Assembly (NCBI GenBank): GCA_013151735.1
Contig: JAADHR010000027.1
Location: 3,962 to 55,999 of the forward strand
Reading direction: 5' to 3'
Length of the DNA: 52,038 nucleotides
Origin: Calditrichota bacterium
GTDB lineage: Bacteria; Zhuqueibacterota; JdFR-76; BMS3Abin05
The position numbers and the translations under genes were made by a program. This document shows positions 30,012 to 41,111 of the stretch, in pieces (within the stretch, counting starts at the first letter, position 1; the number at the start of each line of letters is the position of its first letter). The notes under the pieces are model-generated. The model was not told the DNA's origin. It was given only the letters and a program-made list of their open reading frames with translations, and made no database searches.

Positions 30012-33000
30012 ATGGTGCATTCAATGATTTCGAAGAAGAATGGTTCGGCAGCGTCTGGAGTCCAGAAATCTCACGTTCAAAAACTTACCCTCATAATCAC
30101 ATTTCTTGTTCCGATTCTTTTTTGGGCCAACCTCAGCTTCTCACGTGCTCCCGATAAAGCTCGCCTGGAAAAACAATATGAAGCCCACGTCTGGAAAATG
30201 ATCGACGAAAAAACCAGCGATTTTTATTACGACATGGTTTATAAAGAGCAGTTCTTAACCATTATGATGGATAATCTGGTTGACGAGCTAAAGGTACGGA
30301 AAAAGGAAAAGCAGCCTATTTCTCAGATTTTTGACGCTCTTGTGACCCATGACACATCCGGGGATTCAGACTCTTTGATTCAAGCGTATTCTCAGGAGAT
30401 TCGCCGCGTTCTGGGGCTGATGGATGAACTAAAAGGACTGGAGAAAAAGGCGGATCAGGAAAATGACCGCTCCGTTCGCGCCCGTGCCGAGGCCATCAAG
30501 AATGATCTGAAGCAGGCCATTGAAGGAAATACCCGAAAATCATTCTCAAAAACGGATCCATTATCCAAATCCCTTATTTCCGAATACCAAAAAGAAATAG
30601 ACCAAATACTCGCCATTTTTAAGGAATTGGAACATTATGAGGCCCTTGCGCGAGCGGAAAACAATCAAGTTGCCCTTTCTGAAATTGCCCGGGAAAAATC
30701 TCGTTTAGAGCAGGTCCTCAGCAGCCAGGTGTCCCAATCGGATAACACGCTGGAAGCCCAGTATTTTAAGGAAATGGAAAATGTGATCAGTGTTTTGTAC
30801 CAATTGGATCATTTCCGGTCCCAGGTAAACCCGGACGAGGAAGACCTGTTGTTTAAAATCGATGCCCTGAAGGAAGAGGTACTGACAAATGTCGATCGCA
30901 AGCTGCTTCGGGTACTCGGATATACGGATTTTGCGCTTCTTCCCAGCGAATCCAAATTTGATGAATTTCTGGAAGAATGGAAGGCCACGCAAATCTTTAA
31001 TTATAAAATCAAACTGACGCGCGTGCGATTATTGCGCCAACGGCTAATTCAAGATTCCAATCTGGAACAGCTAAACCGCATGTTTCGCCGGGATTTAGCC
31101 GATGCCATTATGAGCTACAACCGGGAAGAATATCCCCTGGCCGAATTGGAATTCAGGGAACTTCTTGCGGAATATCCCTTCCAGGATATGGAAGATATCC
31201 ATTACCGTCTTGCGGAAATTTATATGGCCCAGGGAAAGTATGAAAAAGCCAAGCGAACCTTTGATTATGTTATTCAGCACTTTCCGAATTCAAAATATGT
31301 AAACGAGTCGTATTTCAAAATTCTGTTGATCACAGAGGCTCTTCACCAGAACGATCAATATTTTAAAGCCTTCAAAAAATTGCAAGCCCGCTATAAAAAC
31401 ACTCCAAAAGATGCGGTTTTTGAAAAAGCCTACTATTTGACAGGCTATGTTTACTTTAAGAAGGAAAATTACGATTTGGCCATTGCCACACTTCGGGCAA
31501 TTCCCGAAAACTCCGAGTATGCCCTTTCGTCGGAATTTTTGTTGGCCAGCGCATACGCCGGAGAACAGCGCTACCGCTCGGCAGCAAAAATCTTTCGCAA
31601 ATTGGTGGCCGAAACAAAAAAGAGGTCATCGGATCCACGGGCGAACCTTATCAAAAATAATTCTCTCTTAAAGCTCGGAATGATCTATTATGAAAATAAT
31701 GAACCCAAACTGGCCTTGGACTATTTTAGTCGGGTCTCTGAAGGTGACGGGGCCTATCAGGATGCACTGATTGGAAAAGCATGGGCAGAATTTCGTGAAG
31801 GGCAAATTAAATATACCGTAGAGGATCTGGACCGATTATTCTGGAATTTCATGAGCTCGAATACTGTTTACGAAGCCAAAACGCTTTCTGCCCATTGCTA
31901 TAAAATGATGGGAGACCCCGCCCGCGCCGCCCGGGATTTGCGTTATGTGGAAAATGCCAAAAAGGCGCTGGCCATTCTGACGGGAAAAAACAAGGAACGA
32001 GAAACGCTGGCCAGACGTCTTCAGGAATTGGACCAGATTCAGGAAGATGCCCTGAAACGGGGCGACCGGCTTCGGTTTCAGGAAGTTGTGTACCTGAAAC
32101 AAAAAATCAGAAGGATAATGGAAAACACCTATCCCTCCGGTAAACCGGGCCTCTACATGATGGATGAATTTGAAATGGAGCGGCAGCGTCTGGAGGACCT
32201 GGTGGGCGACCTGGAAACCTACCAGAAGATTGTTCAGAAATTGGGATACCGGGATTTAACCAAAAACATCGGCAAAACAAAGAATCGTTTACTTGCGATT
32301 TTGGGAAACTATTCCCCGCATAAATGGGCGGGGGAAACGGATTTTCTGTCCAATTATCCGTTTCTTCAGAGGCAGAGCATGCTTCGCTATAAGAACAAGG
32401 TGCTTTCTGAAATGTTGGCCGAAATTCAATCGGAATTAAACCAGGTTCAGGGCGATCAAAAAGAGGTCGAGAAATTGGTCGCTGAAGCCCGGAAAAAAGG
32501 AGATATAAAATCTCTTGTTCGGCTCGATTTTAACGGAGAAAATCTGGATAATATTTCTGACCGCCTGGAGGAATATGTTGTGTATTTAAATGGTGAACTG
32601 GATGATTCGCCGGAAGAAGATATTCAATATTATGCCGACTTTAGTGGTTTTGGTGTCAGCGACATCGACTTTGTTCGGCTCCAAAATATCGATGAAAAGA
32701 TAAAAAACTATTACGATTACATCAGCCTGATCAACAACGCTCTGAATATTCAGCAATTGGCTTTGAAAGACCGCATTTACACCATGAGCGATAGTCTTCG
32801 TCACGTGCAGCAGCGTCTGGAAGAAAAACGGAAGGAAGACTATCGAAAAGCCATAACTGCCTATTTTAATCAAGGATACTTTGTTTCCAAGAGTCAGGAA
32901 CACGCGGTCCAGCAAGAATCCCCGCGACAAACACAGGATCAGGGCATACAAGAGCTGCTGGATAAAAAATATCCCACGGCGAAAACTCCGGTGGAAAGCA

Positions 33001-33029
33001 AAGTCTTGATTAATAAAAAGAAAAAATAA
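30012..33029 (+). CDS. Large TPR and coiled-coil envelope protein (1005 aa)
   Basis: A 1005-residue protein of no named family. One hydrophobic segment (about 24-42) is a signal peptide or anchor. Residues about 45-340 are charged and helical, a TPR array occupies about 365-620 (ELLAEYPFQDMEDIHYRLAE, YEKAKRTFDYVIQHFPNSKY are typical repeats), and long coiled coils fill about 650-960. The end is a Lys-rich tail. It precedes another TPR giant by 38 bases and a TolQ/TolR/TonB-like set; large TPR proteins of this type are found with Agl-Glt gliding and related motor clusters. The start has a weak ribosome site; ATG 30024 is an alternative. Role as periplasmic scaffold is inference. Confidence 0.75.
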   Translation: MVHSMISKKNGSAASGVQKSHVQKLTLIITFLVPILFWANLSFSRAPDKARLEKQYEAHVWKMIDEKTSDFYYDMVYKEQFLTIMMDNLVDELKVRKKEKQPISQIFDALVTHDTSGDSDSLIQAYSQEIRRVLGLMDELKGLEKKADQENDRSVRARAEAIKNDLKQAIEGNTRKSFSKTDPLSKSLISEYQKEIDQILAIFKELEHYEALARAENNQVALSEIAREKSRLEQVLSSQVSQSDNTLEAQYFKEMENVISVLYQLDHFRSQVNPDEEDLLFKIDALKEEVLTNVDRKLLRVLGYTDFALLPSESKFDEFLEEWKATQIFNYKIKLTRVRLLRQRLIQDSNLEQLNRMFRRDLADAIMSYNREEYPLAELEFRELLAEYPFQDMEDIHYRLAEIYMAQGKYEKAKRTFDYVIQHFPNSKYVNESYFKILLITEALHQNDQYFKAFKKLQARYKNTPKDAVFEKAYYLTGYVYFKKENYDLAIATLRAIPENSEYALSSEFLLASAYAGEQRYRSAAKIFRKLVAETKKRSSDPRANLIKNNSLLKLGMIYYENNEPKLALDYFSRVSEGDGAYQDALIGKAWAEFREGQIKYTVEDLDRLFWNFMSSNTVYEAKTLSAHCYKMMGDPARAARDLRYVENAKKALAILTGKNKERETLARRLQELDQIQEDALKRGDRLRFQEVVYLKQKIRRIMENTYPSGKPGLYMMDEFEMERQRLEDLVGDLETYQKIVQKLGYRDLTKNIGKTKNRLLAILGNYSPHKWAGETDFLSNYPFLQRQSMLRYKNKVLSEMLAEIQSELNQVQGDQKEVEKLVAEARKKGDIKSLVRLDFNGENLDNISDRLEEYVVYLNGELDDSPEEDIQYYADFSGFGVSDIDFVRLQNIDEKIKNYYDYISLINNALNIQQLALKDRIYTMSDSLRHVQQRLEEKRKEDYRKAITAYFNQGYFVSKSQEHAVQQESPRQTQDQGIQELLDKKYPTAKTPVESKVLINKKKK

Positions 33030-33067: not shown

Positions 33068-36000
33068 ATGGAAAAGCGCAGATTCCAGGGATGGAAAGTG
33101 GCCGTTGTATTCTTAATTATGAGCCTCATAATATGTTGGGGCAAAATAGGTTTTGCCCAGGAAACACTTATTGAAAAGGGTGAAAAATCATCCTACCAAA
33201 CGCTGCTGGATTCACTGGTTAAGACATTTTCCGCCGAAGATTTAATCAAGTTTCGTGAGTTTTATCAGAACGAAATTAATCGTCTGCAGCGTGAAAAAAA
33301 ACTCCTCCGTGAGAAAAATATTCAAAATGTTGAAAAATTACTCACCGAAAATCCCAATAGCCATTTTATCGACAAAATTTTACTGCGTTTGGGAGAGTTT
33401 TATTTTCAGGAAGCCGAAGAAACCTTCCTGAAACAGATGGATGCCTACGACAAAGCCTATTCGGAATACGAAAAGGGGCTGCGCCCCAATCCCCCGGATG
33501 AACCCAAAGTGGATTACTCCAAGGCACTGGAAAAATACCGTCTGATTGTCGATAATTTCCCCAACAGCAGTTTATACGATGATGCTCTTTATAATTTAGC
33601 CTACATCCTCGGCAAACAGGGGAAATCGGTAGAAGCTGTGGGTTATTATCGTGAGATTGCTTCAAAATTTCCAAAAAGCAAATACGCTCCGGAAGCCCTC
33701 ATGCAAATCGGGGAATATTATTTTAGTCCCTCTGTGAGAAATTACGATGAGGCGATTAAATACTACAAACTGGTTCTGAAATATAAAGACACCCCTCGTT
33801 ATGATGAAGCCCTGTATAAAATCGGATGGGCAAATTACCTGAAGGAAGATTTCCCTGCCGCGATTGCGTCGTTTACGACAGTTGTTCAAGATATCGAAAA
33901 AACAAAACCGGTGGATTACCAGGGCCTCTATTCCAACCCCTCTCTTGAAAACGAATCACTCGATTACATTGGCATTTGCTTCCACGATTACGGCGGCCTT
34001 GACGAGGCCTTAAGCTATCTGGCCGATTTAAAGTATCCAGACTACGGCGTGCGGATTCTCAAAAAACTGGGGGATGTTTACAAAAATAACGAAGAGAAAT
34101 TCCTGAGAGCCATTGCTACCTATGATGCCATTCTGCATTATTATCCGGATACACCTCAGGCCCCTCAAATCCAGAATGCGATTGTGATGTCGTTCAAACG
34201 ACTGGAAGACAACAACGGCGTTTATCGGGCCCAGCGAGAGATGTTCCTGAAATATCACCCGGGAAGCCAATGGGCGCAGGCGATGGAGAAGAAAATTCCC
34301 AATCCGCTTCTGCGGAGAAAAACCATTCGGGAAGCAACCGAACTGGTGAAGAAAACGATGCAGGAAAATATTAACCGGCTTCTTACCGATGCGGAGAGAG
34401 ATTCTTCTCTGGACTATTATCAACAAGCGGTGAAAAACAGCCGCATCTATTTAAAATATTTCCCGGATGATTCATTGGCCTACACGATTCACTGGAATAT
34501 GGCCGTTGTTCTGGATACGAAATTGAATGAGGATGAAGAGGCCTTTAAGGAATATGAGAAAATTGCCTTTGATTACACCAAGGACAAATATCGAAAGGAT
34601 GCCGCTCAAAATGCCATCGCTGTGGCCAATGAAATTTTGGAAAAGCATCATATTAAGCCCCTGAAAACAGCGGCCGACGATACCAGCAAGATCAGTGACT
34701 TTCAGAAGATGGCCGCTCGTCAGAAGGGAGCAGCCGGTCTTCAGGCGGTCAACCCGGATACCCTGAATGCAGATGAGCGGCGCCTGATTGAGGCCTACAA
34801 TAATTTCATCAAGCTCTTTCCGCAGGATAAAGATGCCTCGGTGGCTCTGGCCAATGCCGGAATTCTGTTCTACAATAAGAAGCAGTTTGAAAAAGCCCTG
34901 AGATATTTTAACACCCTCATTCAACGCTTCCCGAATAGTCCGGAGCTGACCCAGGCGCAATTTACGGCTATGGAAAGCTATTTTGGAAAACAGGATTTTG
35001 TAAGCGCCGAATTAATGGCCAAAAAAATTCAATTAAGCAAAAACGTACCCGAAGCAGTGAAGAAGAAGGCCATTCGCCGCATGTCCGAGTCAATTTTTCT
35101 GCACGCTCAGGCGCTTGCAGACAGCGGAAATCATCTGGCAGCCGCCAAAGAGTATCGGAGGGTTGTGAAAGAAGTGCCCAACGCCAAATTTGCCGATTTG
35201 GCCCTCTATCAATCGGCTGTGGAATATGATAAGGTTTCGGAATACAATCAGGCCGTTGAAGTTTATCAGTATTTAATTGATCATTTTCCTTCATCCAAAT
35301 ATTACCTGGATGCCATGAACAACCTGGCACTGGATTATGGCGAATTGAAGGACTATAAATATGCGGCCAATACCTATGAAAAGCTCTGGAAAGCCACGCC
35401 GGATTCTGCAAAAGCGCAGGATGCGTTGTACAACGCCAGTTTCTTTTCGGTCAAGGCTAAGGATTGGCGAAATGCGATCCGGATAAACAAGCAGTACGTG
35501 AAAACATATCCCAAATCTGCTGATGCGGAAAATATGTTTTACAATATGGCCGAATATTATTTAAAACTGGATGATCTGGATCAGGCCAATAGAATCTGGG
35601 ATGAATTTGGAACCAAATACCCGGATTCGCCCCGGGGTGTGGAGACCTTTTTCAAGCGCGGCGAATATTTTATGAACAAGGGGGAACATGATCAGGCCAT
35701 TGCGGAATTTGACCGGGCGCTGAAGCGAAACTCAGAATTGAAAACAAAAAATCTTAAAACGAATGATTACTACGCAGCAGAAGCCCTCTTCTTAAAATCG
35801 GAATTAATGTACAATGACTACAAAAAAATCCGGTTTACTCTGGCGAATATGGAGGCTCAAAAAAATCGGAAAAAAGAGCTGTTGAATCAATTGGTTTCTC
35901 AGTATGAAGAGGTGGCCGCCTACGGCACGATTCGGTTGTACGAAGCCACCTACGACATTGGAAAGGTTTACGAAGAATTCGCCAATGCCTGGGATTCCCA

Positions 36001-37744
36001 GGAAATTCCTCAAATGGACGAAACCCGTCAGATTGTGTACCGAACAAAAATTCACCAAACGTCCGCACAATTATACGAAAAAGCCCACAATTCCTACCGC
36101 TCAGCGTTTGTTCTGCTGAGAAAGCTTGAGATGGCCAGCAAACCGTCTGCACCGGATTCAACAGCCCTGGCGGACACAACGGGTAAAGATTCAACCCAAA
36201 ATCACTCGATTCGCGTGGCTGAGAAGGACAGTACCCTTCGGGTCATGAAACGCTGGGTAAAGCGTTCGGGTGAAAAGACCTCCGAGATGCTTTACCGGAT
36301 TGCCGATCTGAATTTTGCTTCTATTGAACAAATCTTGTCGGCGCCCATTCCCGGGGGCCTGGACCCCGTGGCCACACTGGAATACAAAAATCAGGTGTAT
36401 CTAAAAGCAGTTAAGCCGACGGTGGATAAAATTGTTCAGGCCCATCTCCGAAACATCAATGAAGCCGATTCACTTCAATTGGAGAATATGTGGGTGGCTC
36501 GTTCGCGGCAAAAGCTGCTGCAGGTCTTTAAGATTCTTCCGGCAAAATATTACCAGCTGGCAAAAGGCACAATCGATACTTACCGGAAAATGAAGCATCA
36601 GTACTATTATATTATGACGAAGGGAACAGATGCTGAAAAGGAGGATGCCCTTAATTTAGCCGGGGATTTGTTGAATGTGATCGAATTGGGGAAAAAGTAC
36701 ACGCAAATTATGACGCGTTTTTACCAGTGGGAATTGGATAATTTTCTTAAACACAATTTCCCGGAAAAATATGCGGAACAGGGAATCAATGACTATCTGG
36801 AAAACACCTACGATATAGCCGACACCTACAAACTGGAGGCGGATTCGGCACGGGCACTAAAGGACTATTTTTCGGCCTTGAATCAAAAGGACCCGATGCC
36901 CGAGTATGAGGACGCCATTTACACCTATTCGGATAATTTTAATTCGTTACACGATGCGGCACTTGAGATTGCCGCAGATGCATACGATTACAAGAAATCC
37001 CATAATTTACAAAGCCTGGCAATTAGCCGCATTTCCAGTCTTCTTATCGAACTGGATCCCGTCACGTACGCCAAAGAATTCGCGGTGTCTACAGATTCCG
37101 TTTATATTCCGGCGGATAGCACGTGGCTGGTCCGTACAGCCGTTGATTCCAACTGGATCCAGAACGATGCCCCGGATTCCTCCTGGCTGCATGCAGAAAA
37201 AATGGCCTGGGATTCCACCGGGAAAGCCCTGTTCCCGGGGCAGGTCGCTTACAGCATGAATATTCCCATGGAACTGGATACCGTGTTTGCGGATACCTCT
37301 GCAGGGGATTCCGTACAAAAAGCTGCGTCCAGGCCCTTTCATCTGGTACCCAAACAACCGTATCCGGGCGAGTTGTATTTCAGAAAACACGTCGAAATCA
37401 GCGACATTCCGGTGTCTGCCATGCTCAAAATTCAGGCGGACGACAACATGGAAATTTTCCTAAACGGCGTAAAGGTTTTCCAGGAAAAGGCCGATACATT
37501 AGGGTGGAAGCAAGCCTTCCCTGTGAATGTGAATGAGTTTATCCGGCAAGGAGATAATGTGGTAGCCATTCACGTAACAGACACAGACAGTACCCGGAAA
37601 GGCATGCGGGCGATCTTTCAAATCCAGCTCCTGCGAAAAGCAACGATTCAGAAGGTGAGTCAGTCGGTTAAGCAGGAAGAAATTAATTATGAAAAAGAGG
37701 TTGAAAAACAGGCCTTTCTTCTAAATCATGTGCTCAAGCCCTAA
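33068..37744 (+). CDS. Giant exported TPR protein with C-terminal beta-sandwich domain (1558 aa)
   Basis: A 1558-residue exported protein. The signal peptide ends GKIGFA, with Gln31 as the likely first mature residue. At least a dozen TPR-like repeats span about 90-950 (for instance KYRLIVDNFPNSSLYDDALY, YYREIASKFPKSKYAPEALM, FDRALKRN), in YfgC/YbgF style where each repeat ends in FPxS. A helical part follows (950-1330), and the last 170 residues form a beta-rich domain with YFRKHVEI and IQADDNMEIFLNGVKVF, like the galactose-binding-type jelly rolls attached to glycosidases. It sits inside the motor operon; a periplasmic or surface scaffold that touches glycan is inference. Confidence 0.78.
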   Translation: MEKRRFQGWKVAVVFLIMSLIICWGKIGFAQETLIEKGEKSSYQTLLDSLVKTFSAEDLIKFREFYQNEINRLQREKKLLREKNIQNVEKLLTENPNSHFIDKILLRLGEFYFQEAEETFLKQMDAYDKAYSEYEKGLRPNPPDEPKVDYSKALEKYRLIVDNFPNSSLYDDALYNLAYILGKQGKSVEAVGYYREIASKFPKSKYAPEALMQIGEYYFSPSVRNYDEAIKYYKLVLKYKDTPRYDEALYKIGWANYLKEDFPAAIASFTTVVQDIEKTKPVDYQGLYSNPSLENESLDYIGICFHDYGGLDEALSYLADLKYPDYGVRILKKLGDVYKNNEEKFLRAIATYDAILHYYPDTPQAPQIQNAIVMSFKRLEDNNGVYRAQREMFLKYHPGSQWAQAMEKKIPNPLLRRKTIREATELVKKTMQENINRLLTDAERDSSLDYYQQAVKNSRIYLKYFPDDSLAYTIHWNMAVVLDTKLNEDEEAFKEYEKIAFDYTKDKYRKDAAQNAIAVANEILEKHHIKPLKTAADDTSKISDFQKMAARQKGAAGLQAVNPDTLNADERRLIEAYNNFIKLFPQDKDASVALANAGILFYNKKQFEKALRYFNTLIQRFPNSPELTQAQFTAMESYFGKQDFVSAELMAKKIQLSKNVPEAVKKKAIRRMSESIFLHAQALADSGNHLAAAKEYRRVVKEVPNAKFADLALYQSAVEYDKVSEYNQAVEVYQYLIDHFPSSKYYLDAMNNLALDYGELKDYKYAANTYEKLWKATPDSAKAQDALYNASFFSVKAKDWRNAIRINKQYVKTYPKSADAENMFYNMAEYYLKLDDLDQANRIWDEFGTKYPDSPRGVETFFKRGEYFMNKGEHDQAIAEFDRALKRNSELKTKNLKTNDYYAAEALFLKSELMYNDYKKIRFTLANMEAQKNRKKELLNQLVSQYEEVAAYGTIRLYEATYDIGKVYEEFANAWDSQEIPQMDETRQIVYRTKIHQTSAQLYEKAHNSYRSAFVLLRKLEMASKPSAPDSTALADTTGKDSTQNHSIRVAEKDSTLRVMKRWVKRSGEKTSEMLYRIADLNFASIEQILSAPIPGGLDPVATLEYKNQVYLKAVKPTVDKIVQAHLRNINEADSLQLENMWVARSRQKLLQVFKILPAKYYQLAKGTIDTYRKMKHQYYYIMTKGTDAEKEDALNLAGDLLNVIELGKKYTQIMTRFYQWELDNFLKHNFPEKYAEQGINDYLENTYDIADTYKLEADSARALKDYFSALNQKDPMPEYEDAIYTYSDNFNSLHDAALEIAADAYDYKKSHNLQSLAISRISSLLIELDPVTYAKEFAVSTDSVYIPADSTWLVRTAVDSNWIQNDAPDSSWLHAEKMAWDSTGKALFPGQVAYSMNIPMELDTVFADTSAGDSVQKAASRPFHLVPKQPYPGELYFRKHVEISDIPVSAMLKIQADDNMEIFLNGVKVFQEKADTLGWKQAFPVNVNEFIRQGDNVVAIHVTDTDSTRKGMRAIFQIQLLRKATIQKVSQSVKQEEINYEKEVEKQAFLLNHVLKP

Positions 37745-37839: not shown

Positions 37840-38187
37840 ATGAGATACCTGGTTGCCGTGAGTTTGGCCGTATTGGTCAGTATGTTTCTATCTACCGGGA
37901 CGGTGAATGCTCAGGAAGCCCCGTCAAAAAAGAAGGCGGCGCCGCCCAAAACATCAAAGGAATTGGTCCTTAAAGCGCTTCATGTGGAGGCACATATTGA
38001 GAAACCGAGTGTTTCCATTGTTCCCAAGCGAATTGAGCCCAAGCTAAAAGAAGTGGAATTCATCCGCCGTTCTTTCAGCAAAGAAATAAAAAACGTGCCC
38101 CGAGAACTCCTCTATATGGAGATTAAAAAATCGAAGAGCAAGCAGATGGCAGAGGCACGCGAAATGTTGCGAAAAGAACGAAAATAA
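37840..38187 (+). CDS. Small exported basic protein of unknown function
   Basis: A 115-residue protein with a clean signal peptide ending TGTVNA and Gln25 as the first mature residue. The mature part (about 91 residues) is Lys-rich, with a KKKAAPPK stretch, then a possible beta part (LKALHVEAHIEKPSVSIVPKRIEP) and a basic C-terminal helix. I recognise no family. It sits 95 bases after the TPR giant and 38 bases before the TolQ-like gene, so it is probably a part of the same envelope machine. Confidence 0.7.
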   Translation: MRYLVAVSLAVLVSMFLSTGTVNAQEAPSKKKAAPPKTSKELVLKALHVEAHIEKPSVSIVPKRIEPKLKEVEFIRRSFSKEIKNVPRELLYMEIKKSKSKQMAEAREMLRKERK

Positions 38188-38225
38188 CATCATTCCCCAA
38201 AAAAAATGAAACAGGAGGTATGAAC

Positions 38226-38888
38226 ATGGGAGAATTCGTCCAAATATTCCATGCATTTAAGATCGGAGCCCCAGGATGGCTTTTTATGTGGATGCTGCTG
38301 GTTACAGCCGTGTTTGTTGTGGCTCTGGCAATTGAGCGTGCCTATTTTATCAGTATTCGCTCAAATATCAATGCGGACAAATTTATGAAAGACATCCGTC
38401 GTCTGGTTACGAAAGGTCAGTACAAAGAGGCCGTTCAGGTTTGTGAAAAACTGAACGACAAAGCGCTTCCGTATGTGGTAGGAACCGGTCTTCGGGTTCT
38501 GGACAACGATGATGAAGAAGTCGATTTCCGAACGGTTCAGAATGCCGTTGACGAGGGAACCCTGGAAATCATCCCCAAATTGCAGCAGCGAACGGGCTGG
38601 CTGGCGACCCTTGGAAATGTGGCCACCTTGTTGGGCCTGATGGGCACGATTTACGGGCTTATCCTGGCGTTCAACTCCGTGTCTTCTCCGGGCGTGGATG
38701 CCGCTGAAAAATCCCGGTTGTTGGCTGCGGGCATTTCAACAGCCATGAACACAACGCTGATCGGTCTGTCCATTGCCATTCCGGCTGTGCTGGTGTACAC
38801 GTACATCCACAACAAAACGATGGAAATTATCGATGAAATTGACGAACACACGGTAAAACTGATCAATTTAATTACGGGGAACAAATAA
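38226..38888 (+). CDS. MotA/TolQ/ExbB-family proton channel protein
   Basis: A 220-residue inner-membrane protein with three membrane segments (about 15-37, 115-140, 160-185) and a cytoplasmic domain between the first two. The TWO-TM pore region GNVATLLGLMGTIYGLILAF and GISTAMNTTLIGLSIAIPAV is diagnostic of TolQ/ExbB stators. The ATG at 38226 is chosen because AGGAGG (38213-38218) is 7 bases before it; the ATG at 38220 is too close. Two TolR-like genes follow at once, so it should form the stator that turns proton flow into force. Confidence 0.92.
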   Translation: MGEFVQIFHAFKIGAPGWLFMWMLLVTAVFVVALAIERAYFISIRSNINADKFMKDIRRLVTKGQYKEAVQVCEKLNDKALPYVVGTGLRVLDNDDEEVDFRTVQNAVDEGTLEIIPKLQQRTGWLATLGNVATLLGLMGTIYGLILAFNSVSSPGVDAAEKSRLLAAGISTAMNTTLIGLSIAIPAVLVYTYIHNKTMEIIDEIDEHTVKLINLITGNK

Positions 38889-39427
38889 TGGCTTTCAAAC
38901 CGTCAAAACGCAAAAGACGTCCGGATGCGGTTGAACCGGAATTGAATTTGACACCCATTATGAACTTGATGGTCGTTCTGATTCCCTTGCTCCTGACCTC
39001 GGCAGAATTTGTAAAACTGGGCATTATTGAAATCAATCTGCCCCCGGCCGCCGGAGCCACGATGACATCCGTCTCGAAAATGCCTCAGGAAGCAGAGAAA
39101 AAGCTCGATCTGACGGTTACCGTCACTGATCAGGGATTTTACATCGCCAGCAGCGCAGCCGTAGCGCTGGGTCAAAACGGTGAGGGTCCCACGATCCCAA
39201 AAGAGGCCGATGGGTACGATTACAAAAAACTGTCTGACTATCTGTACCGGATCAAGAAAAAGGCCGCCGGCATTTTCAGGGATTCAAATCGGATTATCAT
39301 TTTGGCTGAGCCATCCATTAAATATCAGACCGTAGTCAGCACGATGGATGCCTCAAGAAGCATTGAAGTGGATGGAAAACTAAAACCGCTGTTTCCGGAT
39401 GTTTCATTGGGAGCAACAGTACTTTAA
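38888..39427 (+). CDS. ExbD/TolR-family protein lacking the conserved Asp
   Basis: A 179-residue protein with one N-terminal membrane helix (about 24-42) and a periplasmic ExbD-like domain. In TolR and ExbD the helix starts with a conserved Asp (INIVPLLD in E. coli TolR) that carries protons; here the aligned residues read LNLTPIMN, so Asn26 replaces it. The codon is AAC, two changes from... a single-base G-to-A change away from Asp GAC. The end of the TolQ gene and this start share one base. It may act as a structural partner to the Asp-bearing paralogue downstream. Confidence 0.88.
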   Translation: MAFKPSKRKRRPDAVEPELNLTPIMNLMVVLIPLLLTSAEFVKLGIIEINLPPAAGATMTSVSKMPQEAEKKLDLTVTVTDQGFYIASSAAVALGQNGEGPTIPKEADGYDYKKLSDYLYRIKKKAAGIFRDSNRIIILAEPSIKYQTVVSTMDASRSIEVDGKLKPLFPDVSLGATVL

Positions 39428-39448
39428 AATTAAAGAACGGAGTAACAA

Positions 39449-39943
39449 ATGGCCTTTATCCCTTCTCGAATAAAAAGGCATGGTACCGGTAGTGGTGAAG
39501 TAAAACTGAATCTGACCTCAATGATGGATATGTTCACCATTATCCTGGTCTTTTTATTAAAAGTGTATTCCAGTGAAGGGCAAATGATTCAACCCTCTCA
39601 GGATCTGACCCTGCCGAATTCTTCGGTCAACAAACATGCGGAGGTGGCTCTCGATCTGAAAGTTTCCAAGGAATGGGTTGTGTTGAACGACAAACCGGTG
39701 GCCAAAATTTCGGATGTGCTTTCGGAACGGAGCCTGGTTATTCCGGCTCTGGCACACGAATTGAAAAAATATGCTACAGAAGCGCAAAAAGCGGAAGAAG
39801 AATATGGGACACCCTTTACCGGGAAAGTGATTATTCAGGGTGATAAAGATTTGCCCTATAAGGTCCTCGTTAAAATTATGGCCACCTGCGGCCGTTCGGA
39901 GTATCCAAACATGAGACTTTTGGTGTACCATAGCCAAGGGTAA
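39449..39943 (+). CDS. ExbD/TolR-family protein with the conserved Asp
   Basis: A 164-residue paralogue of the previous gene, 21 bases downstream. The membrane helix begins LNLTSMMDMFTIILVFLL, so Asp27 occupies the proton-carrying place that is Asn in its neighbour. The periplasmic part (about 50-164) has the ExbD fold with VIIQGDKDLPYKVLVKIMATCG near the end. With the TolQ-like protein it should form the working stator. Confidence 0.9.
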   Translation: MAFIPSRIKRHGTGSGEVKLNLTSMMDMFTIILVFLLKVYSSEGQMIQPSQDLTLPNSSVNKHAEVALDLKVSKEWVVLNDKPVAKISDVLSERSLVIPALAHELKKYATEAQKAEEEYGTPFTGKVIIQGDKDLPYKVLVKIMATCGRSEYPNMRLLVYHSQG

Positions 39944-39947
39944 TTCA

Positions 39948-41111
39948 TTGGACGAATCAAACCAAAAAACGAGTCTGGATATGAAACATAAAAATAAAAA
40001 TCTTTCTCCATTTGACAATGGAAGTGACGTAGCCACTGTGGAAGAGAAAAAGAGCGTTCCAAAGAACACTGAAACCCTCATCATCGATCCGGATCGGTAC
40101 AAAAAACACGCGCTGCAGAAAATGGATCGGCGGTTTTGGGGGATTGTTCTGGCGACATTTCTCTTTAATACGATTCTTATGATTTATCTTTCCAATCTCC
40201 CGTATCAGATTTCGGAAAATGCGGCTCGGCGGATTCAGGAACATTATGCCAACTTCATTTATCAGAAACAGAAGAAATCCTCCGTTGTAAAGGAATCGGC
40301 AGTGGCGAAAAAGAACGTCGAAGGCAAGAAAGAAGAATCGAAAAAGGTGGCGGAGCAGCCGCCTGCCGAGGCAAAATCCGGTGGAACATCTGCAGGCAGT
40401 CGTGCAAAGGGTCCAGCTACGGCAAAGGAGCGCGTGGCGGCCCGATCCAGAAGCACCCGTCAGATTTCACAGGAAGTGAGTAAAAAGGGACTGTTGGGCC
40501 TGTTAACGGGTACAGGAGAGGCCGCGCAGGGCGAAGCCGTAAGAGATGTCCTGGGGAATGATGCGGGGCAGACAAGCGGGAAAAATTTGGACAAAATTCT
40601 TTCAAATATTGGTGGGATTAAAACCTCCGGCGCATCGGAAGGTGTCGGAAAAGGAGGCAGCGGCCGCGTTAGAGGAGGCCGGGCCACCGGAGCGGGTGCC
40701 GCCATCGGCGATATTGTAACAGGTTTGGGACAGGCGCAAACAACATCCGTGCGGAAGAAAACAAAAATGAAGCTGTTTAAATCCGCAAACGTAAAAGCCG
40801 AAGCCGGGAAATCCGGCGGACGCAGTGCGCAAAGTGTTCTGGCCGTGATTAATTCTCACAAAGCGGCTATCGAGTACTGTTACCAGCGCGCCCTTCGAAC
40901 CAATCCGAATCTCAAAGGAAAAATTTCGGTTCGTTTTGTGATCCACCCGGATGGAAGCGTTGGAAAAGTCACCGTTATTGAATCGACGCTGAACAATTCG
41001 AGTGTGGAACGCTGTATTGTCAGCAAGATTCGGCGCTGGCGCGATTTCGGCCCGGTCGATCCCTCAAAAGGCGATGCCGTGTTCCGGCAGGATTACATTT
41101 TCGGATATTAA
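39948..41111 (+). CDS. AgmX/PglI C-terminal domain protein (TonB-like energy transducer)
   Basis: A 387-residue protein with an N-terminal cytoplasmic tail, a membrane helix (about 62-82), a long low-complexity periplasmic linker rich in Lys, Ala, Gly and Ser (about 105-270), and a C-terminal AgmX/PglI domain (about 285-387). That domain holds the family's Cys pair (IEYCYQRAL and VERCIVSKIRRWRDFG) and the TonB-like VRFVIHPDGSVGKVTV. In Myxococcus such proteins belong to the gliding machinery. The TTG at 39948 is used because AAGGG lies 7 bases before it; ATG 39981 has no ribosome site. Last gene of the cluster. Confidence 0.87.
   Translation: MDESNQKTSLDMKHKNKNLSPFDNGSDVATVEEKKSVPKNTETLIIDPDRYKKHALQKMDRRFWGIVLATFLFNTILMIYLSNLPYQISENAARRIQEHYANFIYQKQKKSSVVKESAVAKKNVEGKKEESKKVAEQPPAEAKSGGTSAGSRAKGPATAKERVAARSRSTRQISQEVSKKGLLGLLTGTGEAAQGEAVRDVLGNDAGQTSGKNLDKILSNIGGIKTSGASEGVGKGGSGRVRGGRATGAGAAIGDIVTGLGQAQTTSVRKKTKMKLFKSANVKAEAGKSGGRSAQSVLAVINSHKAAIEYCYQRALRTNPNLKGKISVRFVIHPDGSVGKVTVIESTLNNSSVERCIVSKIRRWRDFGPVDPSKGDAVFRQDYIFGY

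Follow-up and report, generated by a model that had tools for sequence, protein, structure and literature searches.

Models of the flagellar, Ton, Tol and gliding motors place two Asp residues in the axle, one on each subunit, which swap protonation stepwise (PMC12905483). A stretch of Calditrichota DNA of 52,038 nucleotides, referred to as a whole as the window, contains a TolQ-like gene followed by two adjacent genes for ExbD/TolR-like axle subunits, and just one of the two encodes the proton-carrying Asp. The locus raises the question of whether this difference is real and has been kept, what else in the motor goes with it, and what kind of axle the two proteins would build.

Organization of the motor gene cluster

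The genes were found in an operon-like, co-directional order on the forward strand. The order begins with a TPR protein of 1005 aa with an N-terminal membrane or signal segment (30012..33029; ORF with Pfam TPR_6), which matched the NCBIfam GltC model weakly, with an E-value of 8e-6 that lies far under the cut-off. It continues with a large TPR protein of 1558 aa with YbgF/BamD-like repeats (33068..37744; ORF with Pfam matches, and NCBIfam tol_pal_ybgF and BamD models above cut-off), and an ORF for a small secreted or periplasmic protein of 115 aa (37840..38187), which carries the motif IEKPxVxIIP...IxRSF and had no match in Pfam or NCBIfam. The TolQ/ExbB/AglR-like proton-channel subunit comes next (222 aa, 38220..38888), identified by Pfam MotA_ExbB (PF01618, 84.5 bits) and by alignment to solved TolQ. 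Its stop is overlapped by the start of ExbD1 (179 aa, 38888..39427), the ExbD/TolR-like axle subunit without the Asp, and ExbD2 (164 aa, 39449..39943), the Asp-bearing one, follows. With 41.6 and 57.3 bits respectively, ExbD1 and ExbD2 both exceeded the Pfam ExbD (PF02472) cut-off of 25.4 bits. The last gene (39948..41111) encodes an AgmX/GltG-like protein with one membrane helix, a low-complexity linker and a TonB-like C-terminal domain. Its C-terminus matched NCBIfam myxo_SS_tail at 91.8 bits against a cut-off of 40; the match to the GltG model had an E-value of 2e-29 with a score below the GltG cut-off, and the GltJ equivalog was also below cut-off.

The equivalog models of the Tol-Pal and Ton systems were not reached. 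The window TolQ scored 66.2 of 221 bits for Tol-Pal TolQ, Tol-Pal TolR was matched at 27.4 and 26.0 of 127.3 bits, and the Ton models ExbB and ExbD_2 gave 50.9 of 206.2 and 32.1 of 123.45 bits. By its subunits, namely a MotA/TolQ/ExbB domain, ExbD domains and a pore Thr pair, the window belongs with the ExbBD/TolQR/AglRQS 5:2 superfamily. The cluster appears to encode a proton-driven envelope motor whose axle proteins are unequal, one with the proton-carrying Asp and the other without it.

The membrane helix of ExbD1 reads LNLTPIMN, with Asn26 (codon AAC, 38963..38965) at the position of the proton-carrying Asp of ExbD/TolR. When both proteins were aligned to the solved Serratia ExbD (7ajq, HEINVTPFIDVM), its catalytic Asp fell on Asn26 of ExbD1 and on Asp27 of ExbD2 (codon GAT, 39527..39529), which is the sole acidic residue remaining at the proton site. 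The window thus departs from the pattern of one proton-carrying Asp in each ExbD-type subunit. The sequence-only reading of this DNA had assigned the same two residues to the same codons and positions, and both the ORFs and the Serratia alignment agreed with it. No substitute acid was present in the ExbD1 helix between positions -4 and +12 of the site.

Conservation of the unequal pair

The genome from which the window derives contains 7 TolQ/MotA loci and 10 ExbD loci, the latter in 6 clusters (four tandem pairs and two singles), with one TolQ beside each pair or single. A second cluster, on contig C49, shows the same split (VNITPIMN / LRLTSMID). An ExbD1 homologue was found in 76 of 82 genomes of Calditrichota/KSB1. 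After removal of duplicates, 88 of the 89 distinct ExbD1 proteins of this phylum carried Asn at the site, and ExbD2 always carried Asp. The single exception (L056) is an Asp/Asp pair with a proline in the ExbD1 helix. At this locus (L056 / L248, on contig C228 of genome G078) ExbD1 reads LNLNPLLD VMTVLIPLLL and is nested in the Asn clade, with TolQ lying off the contig; judged from its place in the tree, the Asp is an apparent natural reversion.

Beyond the phylum, a search of named genomes with a pattern for the ExbD2 helix, which was blind to ExbD1 and accepted Asn as well as Asp in ExbD2, returned 116 loci, and the same asymmetry was found at the neighbouring ExbD1. Further pairs came from profile searches of Bdellovibrionales, Fibrobacterota and Myxococcota, which brought the total to 299 distinct tandem pairs drawn from several phyla. 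ExbD2 had Asp in all 299. ExbD1 was non-Asp in 208 (Asn in 172, Ala in 28, Gly in 5, Ser in 2 and Cys in 1) and Asp in the remaining 91. Every non-Asp ExbD1 in a complete locus (208/208) was adjacent to an Asp-bearing ExbD2, and the only two exceptions were both at contig ends. According to the record titles, on which the phylum assignments rest and some of which are doubtful, Asn occurs in Calditrichota/KSB1, Electryoneota, Fermentibacterota, Fibrobacterota, Thermodesulfobacteriota and part of the Myxococcota. Ala or Ser is found among Bdellovibrionota, Fibrobacter has Gly and a single MAG Cys; Asp is carried by most Myxococcota and by some Bdellovibrionota. Three titles look wrong: the clusters recorded under 'Bacteroidetes' (L135) and 'Actinomycetota' (L181) match Calditrichota genomes, and a 'Klebsiella pneumoniae' MAG (L153) has a myxobacteria-like Asp/Asp cluster.

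The split between Asn and Asp is far beyond chance, and hundreds of related clusters across several bacterial phyla retain the unequal pair. Conservation across relatives rules out a local mutation or a sequencing error. On the trees, at least five to eight switches between Asp and non-Asp were counted, depending on the gene used, and large clades are fixed for non-Asp. The Asn codon of the ExbD1 genes varies freely (AAC in 68, AAT in 58); since the codon drifts while a single A-to-G transition would restore Asp, it is the Asn residue that is held. The sequence-only reading had suggested a lasting division of labour between the two subunits, to be judged by comparing helix 1 of ExbD pairs and by checking whether close relatives have Asp in their first paralogue. 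The 88 of 89 pairs with Asn first and Asp second in the phylum, together with non-Asp ExbD1 and invariably Asp-bearing ExbD2 in other phyla, strongly supported this suggestion and spoke against a mutation confined to this genome. The load-sensing role that the reading also raised for the Asn form is speculative.

Paralogy, selection and predicted fold

In a joint tree, the proteins of the first and of the second gene separated into two clades, with a support of 98 and a single change. Canonical AglQ and AglS of the Myxococcus gliding motor fell inside the same two clades, which makes ExbD1 the counterpart of AglQ and ExbD2 that of AglS. ExbD1 and ExbD2 are 24% identical. A duplication had previously been read from the MAF(K/I)PS start that the two window proteins share. 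The duplication is real, but the clade split and the low identity make it ancient, and the shared start is no more than a loose sign of it: a MA(F/Y)xP(S/T) start (38888-38905 and 39449-39466 in the window) was present in both members of only 56 of the 299 pairs, in neither member of 235 and in one alone of 8. A recent duplication marked by this start was ruled out by the joint tree and the identity. The common N-terminus is a feature of the lineage and not a mark of recent copying. The cytoplasmic N-termini of the two proteins look like a case of concerted evolution, perhaps through a shared binding site.

Compared with a genome of the same genus, dN/dS was ~0.06 for TolQ, ~0.08 for ExbD1 and ~0.07 for ExbD2. 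ExbD1 and ExbD2 are hence both under strong purifying selection, which rules out that ExbD1 is a pseudogene. The AlphaFold model of ExbD1 (mean pLDDT 83.7, helix at 22-45) had as its best PDB match the ExbD periplasmic domain 8pek, with a probability of 1.00, although the E-value of 0.011 is weak. The ExbD2 model (mean pLDDT 80.2) matched ExbD 8pek/8vgc and TolR 5by4, and did so more firmly than ExbD1. Each model has a single membrane helix and, in the periplasm, a domain like that of ExbD.

Motor-core features linked to the loss of Asp

The sole invariant column of the ExbD1 alignment was a proline in the membrane helix, 7 residues past the proton site (Pro33 in the window, codon 38984..38986). 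Across the pairs it was found in 201 of 208 non-Asp ExbD1 proteins versus 18 of 91 with Asp. The 7 non-Asp pairs without it and the 18 Asp pairs with it led us to reject a strict covariation of the proline with Asp loss. In the window TolQ, alignment to solved TolQ and the column counts placed Thr174 (codon 38739..38741) where the conserved Glu of TolQ/ExbB stands, a position that we take to be E176 in ExbB numbering. A charged residue at 174 was missing from 200 of 202 non-Asp clusters and stood in 62 of the 66 Asp clusters that lack the helix proline. Loss of the TolQ Glu seemed at first to covary almost perfectly with Asp loss; strict covariation was broken by 17 Bdellovibrionota Asp/Asp pairs that have both the helix proline and an uncharged TolQ 174. 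Because these pairs share it, the uncharged residue marks the proline-bearing clade and not Asp loss itself, and the association of TolQ 174 and the proline with Asp loss comprises too few tree-independent pairs to have statistical power.

The pore residues Thr143 and Thr179 of TolQ were invariant in non-Asp and Asp clusters. Among the first 188 clusters with TolQ, residue 178 was Thr in all non-Asp clusters, and most Asp/Asp clusters had Asn or Cys there. The neighbouring genes differed as well. An AgmX-like gene was the next gene downstream in 103 of 118 non-Asp clusters versus 1 of 53 Asp/Asp clusters, and a homologue of the small secreted protein lay directly upstream of TolQ in 94 of 123 versus 0 of 50, in searches with models grown from the window proteins, which may miss remote homologues in the Asp/Asp group. 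Judging from this gene order, the small secreted protein (37840-38187) is likely an unnamed component of the motor.

Comparison with known motors

AglRQS, which serves gliding and sporulation in Myxococcus xanthus, resembles the window in having a TolQ-like gene with two adjacent ExbD/TolR-like genes of the same clades, a likely partner of the AgmX/GltG type and TPR partners. In Myxococcus, Pyxidicoccus and Corallococcus, the probable aglRQS loci were identified from domain extents and from lengths compared to a published table (PMC3169522). Their likely canonical AglQ/AglS are Asp/Asp (INLTAFID or INMVPFID / LLITPLVD); the idea that AglS or AglQ of Myxococcus already carries Asn was checked and proved wrong. 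Unlike the window, these systems lack the ExbD1 helix proline and have Glu at 174 in the canonical TolQ checked. In M. xanthus, the AglQ D28N mutation abolished proton conductance and paralysed motility, and aglQ and aglS were each required (PMC3858216). Since ExbD1 is the counterpart of AglQ and AglQ D28 is essential, the Asp missing from the window is the very one that is essential in the model system. Moreover, D28N paralyses M. xanthus although AglS of its relatives keeps Asp, so that an axle with one Asp is not automatically functional. The puzzle is that most of the related clusters examined have as their normal state the change by which the model motor is paralysed. Whether AglQ and AglS form hetero- or homodimers has been stated as unknown (PMC9389320), and the asymmetry of ExbD1 and ExbD2 bears on this question. 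A sequence search found no solved AglRQS structure.

TolQR and ExbBD of E. coli share with the window the domain families, the Thr ring, the ExbD periplasmic fold and an Asp-bearing helix. They differ in having one ExbD/TolR gene, whose product forms a homodimer with two Asp, whereas the window has two ExbD genes, one Asp and a TolQ without the conserved Glu. Motor clusters of PVC bacteria combine, like the window, a TPR gene, a tolQ-like gene, a heterologous tolR pair and a membrane-tethered transducer, which is of the vWA type there and TonB-like here, and the section consulted mentions no loss of Asp in one tolR of a pair (PMC12204202). GldLM of Bacteroidota is likewise a 5:2 proton motor for surface movement (PMC9389320); GldM forms a symmetric dimer, and a sequence relation to the window motor is not established. 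The AglQ/AglS pair is well known, and heterologous tolR-like pairs beside tolQ have been described before (PMC12204202). In the literature searched, which included few subscription papers, we found no account of paired ExbD paralogues of which one has systematically lost its proton site, and priority is uncertain.

A proposed single-carboxylate axle and its alternatives

We consider it fairly probable that the genes specify a 5:2 motor of the AglRQS/TolQR type in which ExbD1 and ExbD2 pair obligately as a heterodimeric axle, with one titratable carboxylate per axle as the consequence. Such an asymmetric dimer would be consistent with the obligate pairing, the one TolQ per pair and the linked changes in the motor core. 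A TolQ pentamer would encircle the ExbD dimer and be coupled to the AgmX/GltG-like transducer and the periplasmic TPR proteins. Protons would travel solely via Asp27 of ExbD2 and the Thr ring of TolQ, with ExbD2 alone loading and releasing them, and ExbD1, neutral at all times, would complete the axle as its second leg and bear force in the periplasm. In known 5:2 motors, the two axle Asp alternate between the Thr ring and a cytoplasmic cavity, swapping protonation at each 36-degree step (PMC12905483). Adapted to one Asp, this cycle would use about one proton per 72-degree step versus two per two 36-degree steps. The motor would rotate in this manner and may serve gliding or surface transport. 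The broader proposal, that there is a widespread class of rotary motors with an obligate heterodimer axle, a single carboxylate, no two-site alternation and half the protons per turn, is made tentatively, and we hold it to be slightly more doubtful than probable. If true, it would provide a natural family with two axle genes and one Asp that tests whether alternation is necessary, and the single Asp would serve as an internal label that tells which of the subunits faces which pore.

The main competing explanation is that the two proteins form homodimers that share one TolQ, with TolQ5-(ExbD2)2 as the working motor and TolQ5-(ExbD1)2 or free ExbD1 as a brake, a spare anchor or an assembly factor. 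ExbD2 homodimers could do the motor work alone, the periplasmic domains of this family can homodimerise, as the solved ExbD and TolR dimers matched by our models illustrate, and the uncertainty over the AglQ/AglS dimer applies here too. We nevertheless regard this arrangement as unlikely, given the strict one-to-one pairing in the 208 complete loci, the ancient co-inheritance of ExbD1 and ExbD2, which includes Asp/Asp systems, the separate need for aglQ and aglS in the canonical motor (PMC3858216), and the rarity of pairs (8 of 299) in which one member alone has the N-terminal signature. A different objection is that ExbD1 still carries protons through a relocated carboxylate, which would make the axle not truly one-sided. 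Asp at position -6 of ExbD1 was found in 34 of 36 Ala, Gly, Ser or Cys types and 53 of 172 Asn types, and in 0 of 91 Asp types; its presence only where the canonical Asp is absent hints at a relocated or complementary acid. We hold this to be improbable: the window's residue at -6 is Asn20 (codon 38945-38947), as it is Asn in 116 of the 172 Asn types, and position -6 probably lies at the cytoplasmic mouth, away from the Thr ring.

The variety of residues that replace Asp (Asn, Ala, Gly, Ser and Cys) could also be the outcome of drift in a dead duplicate that lost its Asp once ExbD1 was no longer functional. The strong purifying selection, the confidently predicted fold and the invariant Pro33, along with the retention of ExbD1 beside ExbD2 in every lineage and the large clades fixed for non-Asp, leave very little room for this, and as a general explanation it is already refuted. 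Least credible of all is a post-translational deamidation of Asn26 to Asp, by which a symmetric two-Asp axle would be regained. Asn is indeed the commonest replacement (172 of 208), but the Ala, Gly, Ser or Cys of the other 36 pairs cannot become Asp, and the residue after the ExbD1 Asn is Leu, Ile, Met or Val, before which Asn deamidates slowly.

Within the single order Bdellovibrionales, sister clusters (L287-L306) have Asp in ExbD2 with either Ala or Asp in ExbD1; every one of them has the helix proline and no charge at TolQ 174, and together they offer a natural set in which to compare when the second Asp can be dispensed with.
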